64,000 nucleotides of DNA. Source: Streptomyces ferrugineus. Its GTDB lineage: Bacteria > Actinomycetota > Actinomycetes > Streptomycetales > Streptomycetaceae. The translations under genes were made by a program, and so were the position numbers. The stretch spans positions 744,001 to 808,000 of the forward strand of contig NZ_CP063373.1 of NCBI RefSeq assembly GCF_015160855.1. Reading direction: 5' to 3'. The notes beneath the pieces were generated by a model. That model was not told where the DNA came from. It did no database searches and saw nothing but the letters and a program-made list of their open reading frames with translations. Each line of letters opens with the position of its first letter. The stretch's first letter is position 1. Positions 40,138 to 48,194 of the stretch are shown one piece after another.

Positions 40138-40167
40138 CTTTAGTCAGGGTAATGAGGTATGCTAAAG
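40138..40167. promoter_or_regulatory. Inverted repeat CTTTAG-N18-CTAAAG at the marR start
   Basis: Perfect 6-base arms (40138-40143, 40162-40167) flank an AT-rich core and end three bases before the ATG at 40171. The location over the start of a MarR-family gene is the usual place for its autoregulatory operator. Confidence 0.5.
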
Positions 40168-40170
40168 AAC

Positions 40171-40608
40171 ATGTCGGACCTTACCCATGGCGACGACGCT
40201 GCCGCCGTGAACTCCCTGCGCTCCGCCGTGATGCGACTGTCGCGCCGGCTCAAGCACCAGCGGGTCGACGAGTCGCTGAGTCCCACCGAGATGTCGGTGC
40301 TGGGCACCCTCTCCCTCTGTGGCCGGGCCACCCCGGGTGAGCTGGCCCGCAAGGAGCACGTCCAGCCGCCGTCGATGACCCGCATCGTGGCCCTGCTGGA
40401 GGCCAAGGGACTGGTCCGCCTGGAGCCGCACCCCGAGGACCGGCGCCAGAAGGTCGTCACGAAGACCGAGCAGGCCGAGGCGATGCTCGAAGAGAGCCGC
40501 CGCAAGCGCAACGCCTTCCTGGCCACCCTGGTCGAGGGTCTCGACGAGGACGAGTGGGCGAAACTGCGCGCCGCCGCCCCCGTGCTGGAGAAGCTCGCAC
40601 ACCTGTAA
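40171..40608 (+). CDS. MarR family transcriptional regulator
   Basis: A 145-residue dimeric winged-helix regulator. The HTH core is LSPTEMSVLGTLSLCGRATPG ELARKEHV, and the wing carries the family motif PHPEDRRQKVV. The start is ATG 40171 (MSDLTHG); ATG 40159 would add four residues. The gene is followed 27 bases later by an MFS transporter with its own strong ribosome site, so the pair forms a drug-efflux-type operon that the regulator most likely represses. A symmetric element overlaps its promoter and start. Confidence 0.9.
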   Translation: MSDLTHGDDAAAVNSLRSAVMRLSRRLKHQRVDESLSPTEMSVLGTLSLCGRATPGELARKEHVQPPSMTRIVALLEAKGLVRLEPHPEDRRQKVVTKTEQAEAMLEESRRKRNAFLATLVEGLDEDEWAKLRAAAPVLEKLAHL

Positions 40609-40635
40609 GCCGTTTCGCGAGGAGGCGAACCCCCA

Positions 40636-41994
40636 TTGAGTACGGGATCCGGAGCAGCTTCCGCCCCCGCACCGACCACCCCTTCTACCGCCGTTCCCCG
40701 CAAGTCCTCGATGTTCAGCTCGCTGAAGGTCAGGAACTACCGCCTCTTCTTCCTCGGCCAGGTCGTCTCCAACACCGGCACCTGGATGCAGCGCATCGCC
40801 CAGGACTGGCTGGTGCTCACCCTCACCGGCTCCTCGGCCGCCGTCGGCATCACCACGGCCCTGCAGTTCCTGCCGATGCTGCTCTTCGGCCTCTACGGCG
40901 GCGTCCTCGTCGACCGGCTGCCCAAGCGCCGTACGCTGCTCGTCACCCAGTCCGCGATGGCGGTCACGGGTCTCGTTCTGGCCTTTCTGACGCTCACCGG
41001 ACATGTCCAGGTCTGGCACGTCTACCTCGCCGCCTTCGCCGTCGGCCTCGCCACGGTCGTCGACAACCCGGCCCGCCAGTCCTTCGTGAGTGAGATGGTC
41101 GGCCCCGACCAGCTCCAGAACGCGGTCAGCCTGAACTCCGCGAACTTCCAGTCGGCCCGGCTGATCGGCCCCGCCGTGGCCGGCCTGATGATCACCGGCG
41201 TCGGCACCGGCTGGGCGTTCCTAGCCAACGGCCTGTCCTTCGTGGCGCCCATCACCGGACTGCTGCTGATGCGGGCGCGTGAGCTGCACGCCGTCGAGCG
41301 GGCGCCGCGCGGCAAGGGGCAGCTGCGGGAGGGACTGCGCTATGTCGCCGGGCGCCCGGAGCTGATCTGGACCATCGTCCTCGCGGGTTTCGTCAGCACC
41401 TTCGGCTTCAACTTCCCGGTCTACCTCTCCGCCTTCGCCGACGACGTCTTCCACGCCGGCGCGGGCTCCTACAGCCTCTTCAACACGCTGATGGCGGTCG
41501 GCTCCCTGGCGGGAGCGCTGCTCGCGGCCCGGCGCGGTACGGCCCGGATGCGGGTGCTGATCGCGGGCGCGGTGGCCTTCGGCACGATGGAGATCGTGGC
41601 CGCGTTCGCCCCGTCGCTGTGGCTGTTCGCCCTGCTCATGGCCCCGATCGGGATGTTCGGCATGACGGTGAACGTCACCGCCAACAGCAGCATCCAGATG
41701 GCCACCGACCCGGGCATGCGGGGCCGTGTGATGGCCCTGTACATGATGGTGTTCATGGGCGGAGCACCGCTGGGAGCCCCGATCGCCGGCTGGATCACCG
41801 ACACCTACGGCGTCCGGGCGGGCCTGGCGGTGGGCGGCGCGATCACGGCCGTCGCCGCCGTGACGATCGCCCTGGCCCTGGCCCGCGTGGGCGGCCTGCG
41901 GCTGTCGGTCGGCTGGAACCACGGGCATCCGCAGGTGCGGTTCGTGCCGCGCGAGCGGGAGCGGGAGGCGGAGCGGTTGGCGACGGTGGCCTGA
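40636..41994 (+). CDS. MFS exporter (EntS/MFS_3 type)
   Basis: A 452-residue transporter with twelve transmembrane segments. The first is preceded by SLKVRNYRLFFLGQVVSNTG, and the loop 2-3 motif is GVLVDRLPKRRTLL. These belong to the MFS_3 group that exports siderophores, drugs and other small molecules. The start is TTG 40636 with GAGGAGG nine bases upstream. It is co-transcribed with the MarR-type regulator, so its substrate is likely the ligand of that regulator. The tail (EREREAERLATVA) is highly charged. Confidence 0.9.
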   Translation: MSTGSGAASAPAPTTPSTAVPRKSSMFSSLKVRNYRLFFLGQVVSNTGTWMQRIAQDWLVLTLTGSSAAVGITTALQFLPMLLFGLYGGVLVDRLPKRRTLLVTQSAMAVTGLVLAFLTLTGHVQVWHVYLAAFAVGLATVVDNPARQSFVSEMVGPDQLQNAVSLNSANFQSARLIGPAVAGLMITGVGTGWAFLANGLSFVAPITGLLLMRARELHAVERAPRGKGQLREGLRYVAGRPELIWTIVLAGFVSTFGFNFPVYLSAFADDVFHAGAGSYSLFNTLMAVGSLAGALLAARRGTARMRVLIAGAVAFGTMEIVAAFAPSLWLFALLMAPIGMFGMTVNVTANSSIQMATDPGMRGRVMALYMMVFMGGAPLGAPIAGWITDTYGVRAGLAVGGAITAVAAVTIALALARVGGLRLSVGWNHGHPQVRFVPREREREAERLATVA

Positions 41995-43999: not shown

Positions 44000-46186
44000 T
44001 CACGCGGTGCCGAAGACGCCGTCCGGATCGACGCGGCGGCGCAGTTCCGTCAGCCGGGCATGGGTCGGGGTGTCGTACGCCTCGGGCAGGCGGCCCCGGT
44101 CGTCCCGGTCGAGGAAATTGACGTACACCCCCTCGCCGTACGGCGTGAGGGCGGCGACGAAGTCCCGCGCCCAGGCCCGCTCGACGGCGCCGAGGGAGTC
44201 GTCCTGCCGGGGCAGCCACACCGCGTTGACGTTGAGGTGGTGGGGCACGGCCCGGTGGGCGAAGGAGGTGGCGGCGGGGTCGGTCTCGGCGACGGCGCCG
44301 CCGAGGTGGAAGAGGATCGCGTAGCTGCGCGTGGAACGGGCCCGGGCGGCGTGCTCGGTCATGGTGTCGATCACGTCGTCGTCCAGCTCCCGCAGTCCGG
44401 TCGACTTCCAGTAGTAGTGCCAGCCGGCCGGGACGACCGTGTCGAACATCGACTGGAGTGCCGTATAGGGGCGTCGGCGGACCAGGTCCAGCAGCGGGCG
44501 GCCCAGAGCGCGCAGCGGGGCCAGCAGTCGTTCCGCCGCGTCCCCGTCGGCCAGCGCCAGCATGGTGATCATGCAGACCGGGCGGCCGTGCGTCTCGACC
44601 GGCAGGAAGGGCGCGGCGGGCGCGCGGCGCAGCGTCACGACGGTGGCGACCTCGGGCGGTGCGCAGGCGGCGTGCTCCCGGTAGGCGCGCAGGACGGCGG
44701 GGGCGTCCTCGAGCGGCCACAGGACCGGCCCGGCGAGCACCTCCGGGCCCACCGGGTGGAGCCGGTACGTGAAGGAGGTGACCGCGCCCAGCCCGCCCCC
44801 GCCGCCCCGAAGTCCCCAGAACAGCTCCGGTTCGTCGTGCTCGTCGGCGGTCAGGGGCCGTCCGTCGGCGGTGATCAGCTCGGCCCGCGTGAGGTTGTCG
44901 ACCGTCAGACCGTGGCGGCGCATCAGCCAGCCCAGACCGCCGCCCAGGGTGAGCCCCGAGATCCCGGTGTGGGAGACGACCCCTCCGGTCACCGCGAGCC
45001 CGAACGCCTGGGCGGCGGTGTCGAGTTCGCCCCAGAGCGTGCCGGGCCCGGCGGTCGCCGTGCGCCGGGCCGGGTCGACGCTCACGCTCTTCATCGCGGA
45101 GAGGTCGACGACCAGCCCGTCGTCGCACAGCGCGTTCCCGGCCACCCCGTGCCCGCCGCCCCGCACCGTGACGGCCAGCCCCCGCTCGCGGGCGAACCCG
45201 ATGGCGGCGGCCACGTCGGAGGGGGAGAGACAGCGGGCGATGAAGCGTGGGCGGCGGTCGACGGCGCCGTTCCACACGGCGCGTACGGCGTCGTAGTCGG
45301 CGTCGCGCGGGGTGACGAGGCGGCCGCTGAAACCGGGGACGGTGGTGGAGCGGGTCCGTGTGCGCACCGTGCGCCAGGGCGGGTCGCGCCGCGGAGCCGT
45401 GGCGGACGGCACCGCCTCCGGGGGCAGCGGCTGCGGGCCGCCGGGCGCGCGGCGGTGTTCGGCCCGGCGCCGGGCCCGTGTCTGCGGGTAGGAGTTCCAG
45501 GTGGGCAGCGCCCGGCGCAGGTCGCGCGGGCCCTCGACCCGGATCGCGCCGGACTTGAGCGCCGTGGACCACTCGACCAGGCCGAGGTGCCAGCGCGCGA
45601 AGGCCAGCGGGTCGTCGACGGTGACCACCAGGTCGTCACCGAATCCGGGGTCGAACCCGCAGACCTCGCCCCGGCCCCGTTCCAGGAGCAGCCATACCCG
45701 GGTGAGGGCGCCGGGGGACCGGGAGCTGTGGGCCGCGCCTGAGCCGTCGGCCGCTCCGGAGCCGTCGGGCGCGAACTCGAACCGCACCACCACCCGCCGC
45801 TCGGGCAGCAGGTCGCGGCGCAGCGACGACTGGCACCAGGACCACACCACCAGGTCCGGATCGGCGTCCTCGGCGGTGACGTCCATCCAGCGCTCCGCCC
45901 AGTCACCGAGCGCCTGGAGCACCGGCCACAGCTCCCGGCCCGACGGGGTGGGCAGGTAGTACGAGCCCCGGCCGTCCGGCTTGGGGCGGACCGTGACGAC
46001 GCCGGCGCGCTCCAGCTCCCGCAGCCGCCGGGCCAGCAGCGCGCGCGACAGGCCGGGGGCGCCGGCCGCGATCTCGTTGAAGGTACGGCAGCCCAGCAGC
46101 ACGTTGCGCAGGATGATCGGCGTCCACCGCTCGGCGATGAGCCCGGAACCTCTCGCGATGGGGCAGAACTGCCCGTAGCTGCGCAC
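44000..46186 (-). CDS. HxlR-type regulator fused to FAD-linked (BBE-type) oxidoreductase
   Basis: One uninterrupted frame of 728 residues. Residues 1-105 form an HxlR winged helix (SYGQFCPIARGSGLIAERWT, RTFNEIAAGAPGLSRALLAR). Residues 110-235 are the SCP2-like domain often following HxlR in actinobacteria (FDPGFGDDLVVTVDD). A Pro/Arg-rich linker spans 236-285. Residues 290-480 are a PCMH-type FAD domain: RGGGHGVAGN with His347 for a covalent flavin, and HTGISGLTLGGGLGWL, which lacks the cysteine of bicovalent enzymes. The C-terminus (YVNFLDRDD ... VDPDGVFGT) is the berberine-bridge domain. The start is GTG 46186 without a clear ribosome site. Divergent from a methyltransferase across a perfect palindrome. 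Normally separate genes; a frameshift error joining two genes cannot be excluded. Confidence 0.8.
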   Translation of the reverse strand: MRSYGQFCPIARGSGLIAERWTPIILRNVLLGCRTFNEIAAGAPGLSRALLARRLRELERAGVVTVRPKPDGRGSYYLPTPSGRELWPVLQALGDWAERWMDVTAEDADPDLVVWSWCQSSLRRDLLPERRVVVRFEFAPDGSGAADGSGAAHSSRSPGALTRVWLLLERGRGEVCGFDPGFGDDLVVTVDDPLAFARWHLGLVEWSTALKSGAIRVEGPRDLRRALPTWNSYPQTRARRRAEHRRAPGGPQPLPPEAVPSATAPRRDPPWRTVRTRTRSTTVPGFSGRLVTPRDADYDAVRAVWNGAVDRRPRFIARCLSPSDVAAAIGFARERGLAVTVRGGGHGVAGNALCDDGLVVDLSAMKSVSVDPARRTATAGPGTLWGELDTAAQAFGLAVTGGVVSHTGISGLTLGGGLGWLMRRHGLTVDNLTRAELITADGRPLTADEHDEPELFWGLRGGGGGLGAVTSFTYRLHPVGPEVLAGPVLWPLEDAPAVLRAYREHAACAPPEVATVVTLRRAPAAPFLPVETHGRPVCMITMLALADGDAAERLLAPLRALGRPLLDLVRRRPYTALQSMFDTVVPAGWHYYWKSTGLRELDDDVIDTMTEHAARARSTRSYAILFHLGGAVAETDPAATSFAHRAVPHHLNVNAVWLPRQDDSLGAVERAWARDFVAALTPYGEGVYVNFLDRDDRGRLPEAYDTPTHARLTELRRRVDPDGVFGTA

Positions 46187-46229
46187 GACACCAGTGTCGG
46201 GCCGGGGGTGCGCGACGACCAGTTCTGTT

Positions 46230-46250
46230 TGTGAACCGCGGGGGTTCACA
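46230..46250. promoter_or_regulatory. 21-base operator TGTGAACC-N5-GGTTCACA
   Basis: Perfect 8-base arms (46230-46237, 46243-46250) around GCGGG, in the gap between the HxlR-FAD gene and the divergent methyltransferase gene. A further degenerate copy (GTTCTGTTTGTGAAC) overlaps its left side. Position and symmetry point to HxlR-type binding. Confidence 0.65.
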
Positions 46251-46358
46251 GAGTGTCCTGGCCCGCTCCCGCCGCCCGGTCGACGCTCGAAGGGAAGCGG
46301 GGGAAGCGGGGGAAGCGGGACAGCGCGAAAGCGCGAATGCGGGAAAGGGGTGAACGAC

Positions 46359-47174
46359 ATGACCACACGCATCGAGGCCGCCTGGGAGAAGTCCACCACC
46401 GCCGAGAACTACGAGCGCCACCTCGTCCCGGTGCTCTTCGAGCCGTGGGCGCGGACGCTGGTCGACCTCGTCGGCCCACGGCCGGGTGAGCGGGTGCTCG
46501 ACCTGGCCTGCGGGACGGGTGTGGTGGCCCGGAAGGCGGCTGCCGCGGTGGGGCCGACGGGCAGGGTGACGGGCGTCGACCTGAACGAGGACATGCTGAC
46601 CCTGGCCCGCCGGCACACCCCGTCCGGCGGCGCTCCGATCACCTGGAAGCAGGCCGACGCGCTGGACACGGGCCTGCCCGGCGACGCCTTCGACATCGCG
46701 TTCTGCCAGCAGGGGCTGCAGTTCTTCCCCGACCGGCTGCTGGCCCTGCGTGAACTGCGCCGGGTGATGGCTCCCGGCGGCCGGGTCGCGCTCAGTGTCT
46801 GGTGCGACGACCGGTCACCGGGGTTCCACCCCTTCGAGTCCGCCTTCGAGGAGACGCTGACGACTCCCGGTCCGGCGGTACGGTTCCTGCACGCGATCTT
46901 CGACCTGGCCGACCCGGCGGAACTGCACCGCCTGCTCACCGAGGCGGGCTTCACCGACGTGCGGGTCACCCGGGTCACCCGCACGGTCCGCTGCACCTCG
47001 GCCCACGCCTGGGTCGAGGCCTTCCTGGACGCGGCGCCGCTCCCGTCCATCCCCGGGCCCGAACGGGACACCGTCGCCTCGAAGGTGACGGGGCGTCTGA
47101 CGCCGTGCGTGGCCAACGGGTTGGCGTTCCCGGTGGCGGCGAACGTGGCGCTGGCGGAGCGCCGAGGATCTTGA
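46359..47174 (+). CDS. Class I SAM-dependent methyltransferase
   Basis: A 271-residue methyltransferase. Motif I is VLDLACGTGVVARKAA (residues about 46-60), the acidic loop is GVDLNEDML, motif II/III is GDAFDIAFCQQGLQFFPDR, and RRVMAPGGRVALSVW is the post-motif. These features match UbiE/Methyltransf_11 enzymes. The C-terminal third gives the substrate pocket, and no substrate is evident. ATG 46359 has AAAGGGG ten bases before. It is divergent from the HxlR-FAD fusion, probably under its control, which suggests a two-enzyme tailoring or detoxification step. Confidence 0.9.
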   Translation: MTTRIEAAWEKSTTAENYERHLVPVLFEPWARTLVDLVGPRPGERVLDLACGTGVVARKAAAAVGPTGRVTGVDLNEDMLTLARRHTPSGGAPITWKQADALDTGLPGDAFDIAFCQQGLQFFPDRLLALRELRRVMAPGGRVALSVWCDDRSPGFHPFESAFEETLTTPGPAVRFLHAIFDLADPAELHRLLTEAGFTDVRVTRVTRTVRCTSAHAWVEAFLDAAPLPSIPGPERDTVASKVTGRLTPCVANGLAFPVAANVALAERRGS

Positions 47175-47249: not shown

Positions 47250-48194
47250 GTGACCCCCACCACGCCTGCCCGCAGGGCGCTCGTAGCAGCCGTCCTGGTG
47301 TCCACGGCCCTCCTGGGCGCCGCCACCGTCCCCGCCGCCGCGGCACCTTCCGCATCCGCCGCGTCCGACTACGCCGGTTACGCCGGCTACGGCGATCACG
47401 CCCGCCTCGGCTACCAGAAGGCCGTCACTGAGCGCGTCCTCAAGGGCGTGTTCGAGCAGGGCGACACCGAGGTCGTCGACCGCTACGTCCGCCCCGACTA
47501 CATCCAGCACAACCCGCTCGCGCCGGACGGGGCGGAGGCGCTGAAGAACCTGGGCGTCTCGATCCACCAGCAGTTCCCGGACGCCGAGTACGACATCGAG
47601 CGGGTCATCTCCGAGGGCGACCTGGTGCTGGTGCACTCGAACGTGGTGATGACTCCGGGCACGCGGGGCATGGCGGTCTTCGACATCTTCCGCTTCCAGG
47701 GCGGGAAGATCGCCGAGCACTGGGATGTGGGGCAGGCGGTCCCCGAGACTTCGGCCAACGGCAACGACATGTTCTCGACGGAGAGCTGGCCGCGGACCCA
47801 GCGGCCGGGGCCGGGGTGGCTGACGGCGTACAACAAGCGGCTCGTCACCGAGGCCTTCGACCAACTCCTCGTCCGCAAGGACCTGTCCGCGATCGACCGG
47901 TACTGGGGTCCCGAGTACCACCAGCACAACCCGGCCATCGCGGACGGCGTGGCGGGCGTGAAGGCCGGGCTGGGCGGGTACTTCGAGGCGTTCCCGCAGC
48001 TGACGGTCACGCCGAAGCGGGTGATCGCGCAGGGCGACCTGGTGGCGGTCCACAGCCACTATGTGAACGCGCCGGGGGAGCGGGGGCAGGCGATCGTGGA
48101 TCTGTTCCGGGTGCGGGGCGGGAAGATCGTGGAGCACTGGGACGTGATCCAGGACGTGCCGGCCTCGTCGGCGAACGACAACACCATGTTCTAG
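47250..48194 (+). CDS. Secreted protein with two tandem SnoaL-like domains
   Basis: A 314-residue exported protein starting at GTG 47250. The signal peptide (RRALVAAVLVSTALLGAATV) ends near AAA-APS. Two repeats of the NTF2/SnoaL polyketide-cyclase fold follow, residues about 55-165 and 190-312; each has a (Y/Q)HNP motif (YIQHNP, YHQHNP) and ends with GGKI(A/V)EHWDV. SnoaL-like domains bind or cyclise small molecules or hydrolyse epoxides. Two domains in one secreted chain is uncommon. Substrate unknown. Confidence 0.85.
   Translation: MTPTTPARRALVAAVLVSTALLGAATVPAAAAPSASAASDYAGYAGYGDHARLGYQKAVTERVLKGVFEQGDTEVVDRYVRPDYIQHNPLAPDGAEALKNLGVSIHQQFPDAEYDIERVISEGDLVLVHSNVVMTPGTRGMAVFDIFRFQGGKIAEHWDVGQAVPETSANGNDMFSTESWPRTQRPGPGWLTAYNKRLVTEAFDQLLVRKDLSAIDRYWGPEYHQHNPAIADGVAGVKAGLGGYFEAFPQLTVTPKRVIAQGDLVAVHSHYVNAPGERGQAIVDLFRVRGGKIVEHWDVIQDVPASSANDNTMF

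Follow-up and report, generated by a model that had tools for sequence, protein, structure and literature searches.

Results

Organization of the locus

The window, by which we mean the whole stretch of 64,000 nucleotides that was analyzed (744001-808000 of the single-contig, 9.96-Mb genome of Streptomyces ferrugineus), contains a gene in which an HxlR-type regulator, a domain with an SCP2-like fold and a flavoenzyme related to EncM are joined in one frame, preceded by a putative operator and promoter and flanked by a divergent methyltransferase gene (Table 1). The initial annotation had already proposed a single uninterrupted frame with the order HxlR, SCP2-like domain and FAD enzyme. The frame is borne out, with the same fusion found in eight other distinct genomes, and the domain order is recovered from Pfam, from predicted folds and from relatives. 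In a scan of genome contigs, Streptomyces regalis is the nearest named record for the fused gene.

Table 1. Coordinates of the features described in the text (positions in the window; residues are those of the fused protein).
Feature	Position	Strand	Basis or remark
Presumed MarR-like regulator, then presumed MFS-type transporter	40159-41994	+	named from translation
Fused gene, HxlR + SCP2-like + EncM-like flavoenzyme	44000..46186	-	open frame, 728 codons plus stop
EncM-like BBE/PCMH flavoenzyme, residues 285-725	44012..45334	-	PDB match to EncM
Linker, residues 232-284	45335..45493	-	Pro/Arg/Ala-rich, variable in length
SCP2-like domain, residues 105-231	45494..45874	-	predicted fold
HxlR winged helix-turn-helix, residues 16-103	45878..46141	-	Pfam PF01638
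-10-like hexamer GACACT	46193..46198	-	at -12 from start codon
Putative operator GGTTC-N7-GAACT	46221..46237	-	inverted repeat, -51 to -35 from start codon
21-bp palindrome TGTGAACC-N5-GGTTCACA	46230..46250	+	overlaps putative operator
Class I SAM methyltransferase, UbiE-like, divergent neighbor	46359..47174	+	Pfam PF01209, PF13649 (in-frame scan beginning at 46332)
Protein containing two SnoaL-like stretches, shortly after methyltransferase	47250-48194	+	Pfam

Regulatory head and SCP2-like domain

The match of the head to the HxlR family scores 60.7 bits against a cut-off of 20.8, its nearest solved relatives are HxlR-type regulators, and the winged helix is conserved across relatives. The Bacillus subtilis HxlR/DUF24 regulators YodB, HypR and HxlR are much shorter (PDB chains of 110-131 residues), with neither an SCP2-like domain nor an enzyme. 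Just ahead of the winged helix, Cys8 is invariant (36 of 36 aligned rows) and aligns with an N-terminal cysteine of YodB; in HypR, YodB and CatR, a conserved N-terminal cysteine is described as sensing quinones, HOCl and diamide (PMC6943732). The predicted fold of the following domain is a moderate match to SCP2 domains (target TM-score 0.50-0.55), and it also matches residues 541-650 of Pisa1, part of an alkylsulfatase. Pfam gives no SCP2 family for this domain at E 0.001 or better, so that the label SCP2-like, which the initial annotation had chosen and which the predicted fold justifies, is used by fold only. Its Cys176 is also invariant (36/36). We infer a pocket in this domain, probably for a hydrophobic ligand.

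An EncM-like flavoenzyme

The C-terminal part matches FAD_binding_4 at residues 313-446 (Pfam), and a PDB search places EncM, an FAD oxygenase of enterocin biosynthesis, as its nearest solved enzyme (E 5.5e-112), with 45% identity and a target TM-score of 0.90-0.91 in structural alignment (Foldseek; PDB 3W8W, 4XLO). The earlier description as a complete berberine-bridge oxidoreductase holds insofar as a complete BBE-type flavoenzyme is present, but this enzyme is closer to EncM than to plant berberine-bridge enzymes. More distant solved enzymes with the same fold are 6-hydroxy-D-nicotine oxidase and McrA (27% and 31% identity), whose PDB chains of 453 and 441 residues carry no DNA-binding part. 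EncM is likewise without one, unlike the window protein, and belongs to a polyketide pathway (PMC7662398).

In EncM, as PMC7662398 describes it, FAD is held on His78, mutations of L144, L116, H138 and L117 harm catalysis, and the T139V variant has oxidase activity. Counting along the alignment, H78, H138, T139, L144 and L116 of EncM correspond to H346, H406, T407, L412 and L384, so that the window protein shares with EncM the FAD-attachment histidine and these equivalents, besides the fold. His346, predicted to link FAD by an 8-alpha attachment, is a histidine in all 27 aligned enzymes, and the C-terminal YxN motif (residues 688-690) is present in 26 of them; residues 404-412 of the window protein hold no cysteine for a second link to the flavin. 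Four of the five residues of the O2 pocket (L116, L117, H138, T139, L144) are kept, EncM L117 being Trp385 here, and the fused protein of Streptomyces TRM64462 has an arginine at the position of H138. According to a 2024 review (PMC11375781), no BBE-like enzyme other than EncM is yet known to employ the flavin-N5-oxide. Since most aligned relatives share the EncM-type residues, N5-oxide chemistry is possible in the fused enzyme.

Fused genes in other genomes

One scan of genome contigs returned 43 loci, six of them with both halves whole, in order and on the same strand: S. regalis (L009), Streptomyces TRM64462 (L010), Virgisporangium (L011), a Nitriliruptoraceae MAG (L012) and two actinomycete MAGs (L013, L014). 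Whole-genome surveys add L069 and L101. The nine distinct fused genomes thereby comprise the window's, three other Streptomyces, Virgisporangium, the Nitriliruptoraceae MAG and three other Actinomycetota. The frame is uninterrupted in 8/9; L014 has a frame change at residue 405, about 120 residues inside the enzyme and away from the junction. A stop codon between the SCP2-like and FAD domains, a possibility raised in the initial annotation, occurs in none of the nine.

With the regulator half as query, and counting the window's own genome in each sample, fused genes were found in 3/392 genomes of the genus (E 1e-50), in 2/394 of the class (E 1e-60) and in 3/396 of the phylum (E 1e-35, with 30 of 34 matches checked for fusion). 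The fusion is rare and scattered, and may have moved laterally. As a separate observation, a MAG labelled Chloroflexi (L051:4001-4478) contains HxlR and flavoenzyme pieces with 67-78% identity, in two frames and with the middle missing, which points either to the decay of a fused gene or to a contig that was binned wrongly.

A conserved inverted repeat and promoter

The putative operator is an instance of the pattern RGTTC-N7-GWACT; seven of the nine fused loci and four of the six near stand-alone HxlR loci have this pattern, beginning 50-52 nt ahead of the start codon. A search of 21 loci on both strands (194.3 kb) finds 12 distinct sites, 11 of which lie at -50 to -52, and in none of 42,000 shuffled upstream stretches does the pattern occur at that distance, counts that are a description and no independent test, because the pattern was read off these same related sequences. 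The twelfth site is symmetric and lies at -75 in L034. The repeat is missing in 10 of the 21 loci, namely the fused L069 and L101 (the latter having it with one mismatch, at -52), L030 and L037 among the near stand-alone loci, and every one of the six more distant HxlR loci examined. With its centre near -43, it fits an activator as well as a repressor.

The initial annotation had singled out the 21-bp palindrome. This exact and rare sequence does lie in a region of interest and overlaps the conserved element, but the spacing of its arms is variable: 5 nt as well in L009 (with one arm imperfect) and L011, and another spacing or a degenerate form in L010, L012, L013 and L014. The conserved element is the RGTTC-N7-GWACT repeat. 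Closer to the gene, the -10-like hexamer begins at -12 in seven of the eight fused loci compared, the exception being L012; in L101, counting from the sequence, GAGACT lies one base further up. Such a position would let transcription begin at the start codon or close to it and suggests that the transcript of the fused gene may be leaderless.

Neighboring genes

The methyltransferase is divergent from the fused gene in the window, L009, L010, L013, L101 and, weakly (30%), L014, and it faces a stand-alone HxlR gene in L029, L030 and L048. No such gene turned up around L011 and L012 with a cut-off of E 1e-12 or, in the DNA examined, around L067 (a duplicate of L012) and L069 with one of 1e-6. A search of the relatives' loci at 1e-12 gave no match to the SnoaL-like protein. 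In Streptomyces sp. CC208A (L047:3803-4447) the C-terminal ends of a methyltransferase (65%) and a flavoenzyme (66%) are all that remains, on opposite strands and pointing outward from a single spot, which looks like the outcome of a deletion that took the shared promoter together with the regulator part.

Unfused relatives and the history of the fusion

Homologues of the two halves exist as separate genes, on which the initial annotation had also speculated. The close pairs are divergent and not tandem, in 14/14 loci (L015-L028) and in ten more (L064, L070, L074, L078, L082, L088, L092, L098, L099, L102). In L015-L028 the regulator is 45-48% and the enzyme 52-56% identical to the corresponding half of the window protein, and the constant divergent arrangement of these 14 loci shows that regulator and enzyme go together even where they are not fused. 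Both forms, fused and divergent, occur in S. regalis and in Streptomyces TRM64462. One locus, L037, has regulator and enzyme genes on the same strand about 1.9 kb apart, each of them broken.

The divergent HxlR-SCP2/EncM-like pairs differ from the fused genes in being two genes on opposite strands and in their inverted repeat. By eye, most of L015-L028 have a repeat approximating GAAGTC-N9-GACTTC at the corresponding place, and a -10-like GACACT is seen near the regulator start, suggesting that these regulator transcripts may be leaderless too. The recognition-helix stretch also differs, reading SRTLLS or SRTVLA in the divergent pairs against mostly SRALLxRR, with the fused L013 and L069 intermediate. 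The divergent pair of L019, in a record labelled Variovorax paradoxus (Pseudomonadota), groups with actinomycete ones and reflects either lateral transfer or contamination.

The eight fused enzymes included in a 51-enzyme tree form one clade (support 100/99), which meets the main divergent-pair enzymes and a few others at an unsettled fork. The regulator tree, with 53 rows, has six stand-alone regulators (L029, L030, L034, L037, L048, L068) nested among the fused. An AU test on 27 of the 53 rows, which we chose ourselves, argues against a single clade of fused regulator halves and rejects it (p 0.0012, 8 fused versus 19 others); the group was set by gene structure, and the test was run after the tree had shown it split. 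Among these rows, the branching order of L013 and L069 versus the stand-alone L071-L073 and L076 is unsettled. With the enzymes in one clade and stand-alone regulators nested among the fused, the likeliest history, as far as these sequences tell, is a single fusion event, after which the enzyme was lost in some lineages. Repeated fusion is possible, but less economical given the single enzyme clade. A tandem two-gene ancestor that lost a stop codon is not supported, the close unfused pairs being divergent. That the nested stand-alone regulators survive without an enzyme implies that the enzyme is unnecessary for a working regulator.

As to the scope of these comparisons, the structure alignments leave out L037 (stop in frame), alignments A1-A3 are without L014 (frame change), and L101 is absent from alignments and trees. 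Alignments A2 (45 rows) and A3 (36 rows) are our selection from the available loci. The trees are without the duplicates L052, L062, L063, L066, L067 and L075 and without matches below 75% coverage, except the L014 enzyme.

Discussion

To our knowledge, few enzymes double as transcription factors. PutA is an example among flavoenzymes. It is described as a trifunctional flavoenzyme whose N-terminal DNA-binding domain is an autogenous repressor (PMC5293562), built from ribbon-helix-helix and proline/P5C dehydrogenase domains. Neither a ribbon-helix-helix nor a proline dehydrogenase domain was found in the window protein (Pfam, E 0.001), and the likeness is one of analogy, with no homology claimed. 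By this analogy, the best reading of the window protein is an autoregulating enzyme that would work like PutA while being built from unrelated domains; enzyme and regulator share one chain in both, and autoregulation, described for PutA, is suggested here by the upstream repeat.

We hold it to be probable, if by no means assured, that the fused gene encodes a bifunctional autoregulator with sensing by the SCP2-like pocket or Cys8. The HxlR head would bind the putative operator, which would lie between the two divergent promoters, and would control both its own promoter and that of the methyltransferase. The EncM-type enzyme, with a His-linked FAD, would oxidize or oxygenate an aromatic or polyketide-like compound. 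This substrate or a reactive product, lodged in the SCP2-like pocket or reacting with Cys8, would then alter DNA binding, and the supply of enzyme would follow that of substrate. We infer DNA binding, the covalent flavin, the sensing route and the substrate alike, and regulatory coupling within the fused protein is plausible.

The most serious competitor, which we nevertheless consider rather unlikely, is that the domains are merely tethered, an autoregulated HxlR-SCP2 regulator and an enzyme being co-expressed with no signal between them and the regulator responding only to a ligand of its SCP2-like domain or Cys8. It fits well with the linker, which is partly disordered and fast-changing. 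Residues 250-279 have a pLDDT below 50 in the predicted structure (pTM 0.64), and a linker so long and disordered offers no hint that the domains are in fixed contact. The dN/dS of the linker versus L009 and L010 (0.48 and 0.50) is the highest of the four parts of the protein, still below 1, while the other three range from 0.13 to 0.29, values that indicate purifying selection throughout in these two comparisons. Also in line with tethering, the stand-alone L029 and L048 have no enzyme but retain both the RGTTC-N7-GWACT repeat and the methyltransferase neighbor. However, the fusion has been kept in Streptomyces, Virgisporangium, the Nitriliruptoraceae MAG and other Actinomycetota, with identity to the window protein down to 61%, which suggests an advantage beyond co-expression, something that divergent pairs could already give.

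A bolder proposal, and to our mind a doubtful one, is that the flavin active site gates the DNA-binding head in cis, so that turnover at an N5-oxide-capable flavin would release the operator. The signal would be either the redox state of the flavin or a reactive product handed on to Cys8 or to the SCP2-like pocket within that polypeptide. For the sensor role that the initial annotation proposed, the SCP2-like part or Cys8 would be as likely a site as the flavin. If gating in cis were true, a single protein would serve as a switch that gauges its own catalytic activity and governs both itself and the divergent methyltransferase.

It is quite improbable that the locus yields a second product beside the full chain, a free flavoenzyme made from an internal start in the linker. 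In-frame start codons are present in the linker region of seven of the eight fused loci compared, and in the window a GTG at residue 259 directly follows a GGAGG. However, this GGAGG is just 2 nt from the GTG and is not kept in L009, the linker of L011 has no ATG, GTG or TTG, and the positions of start codons are not conserved among the fused loci. We reject a Shine-Dalgarno-led internal start on the grounds that its arrangement is not conserved across them.

That two genes merely look joined, through a frame open by chance or an error of assembly, is hardly credible and we reject it: high GC keeps alternative frames open too, all three being open in the window linker, and one MAG copy (L014) has a frame change, so that an open frame proves little by itself and one-gene status is decided by comparison with relatives, but separate assemblies agree in 8/9 loci, the L014 frame change is far from the junction, and a lost stop could not join the close unfused relatives, which are divergent. 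On this comparative evidence the fusion is real, conserved and no sequencing artefact.

The constituent families are known; the combination and its evolutionary setting are the new part, and among the matches listed we found no published description of an HxlR-flavoenzyme fusion in the open-access literature. The fused protein, read as an autoregulating enzyme, is a second and differently built candidate beside PutA, in which a winged helix and a likely ligand pocket have been placed on an EncM-related enzyme. With fused, divergent and enzyme-less versions all present among related bacteria, the effect of fusing is testable by direct comparison. For the unstudied HxlR-SCP2 and EncM-like genes of actinomycetes, the neighboring genes may hint at substrates.
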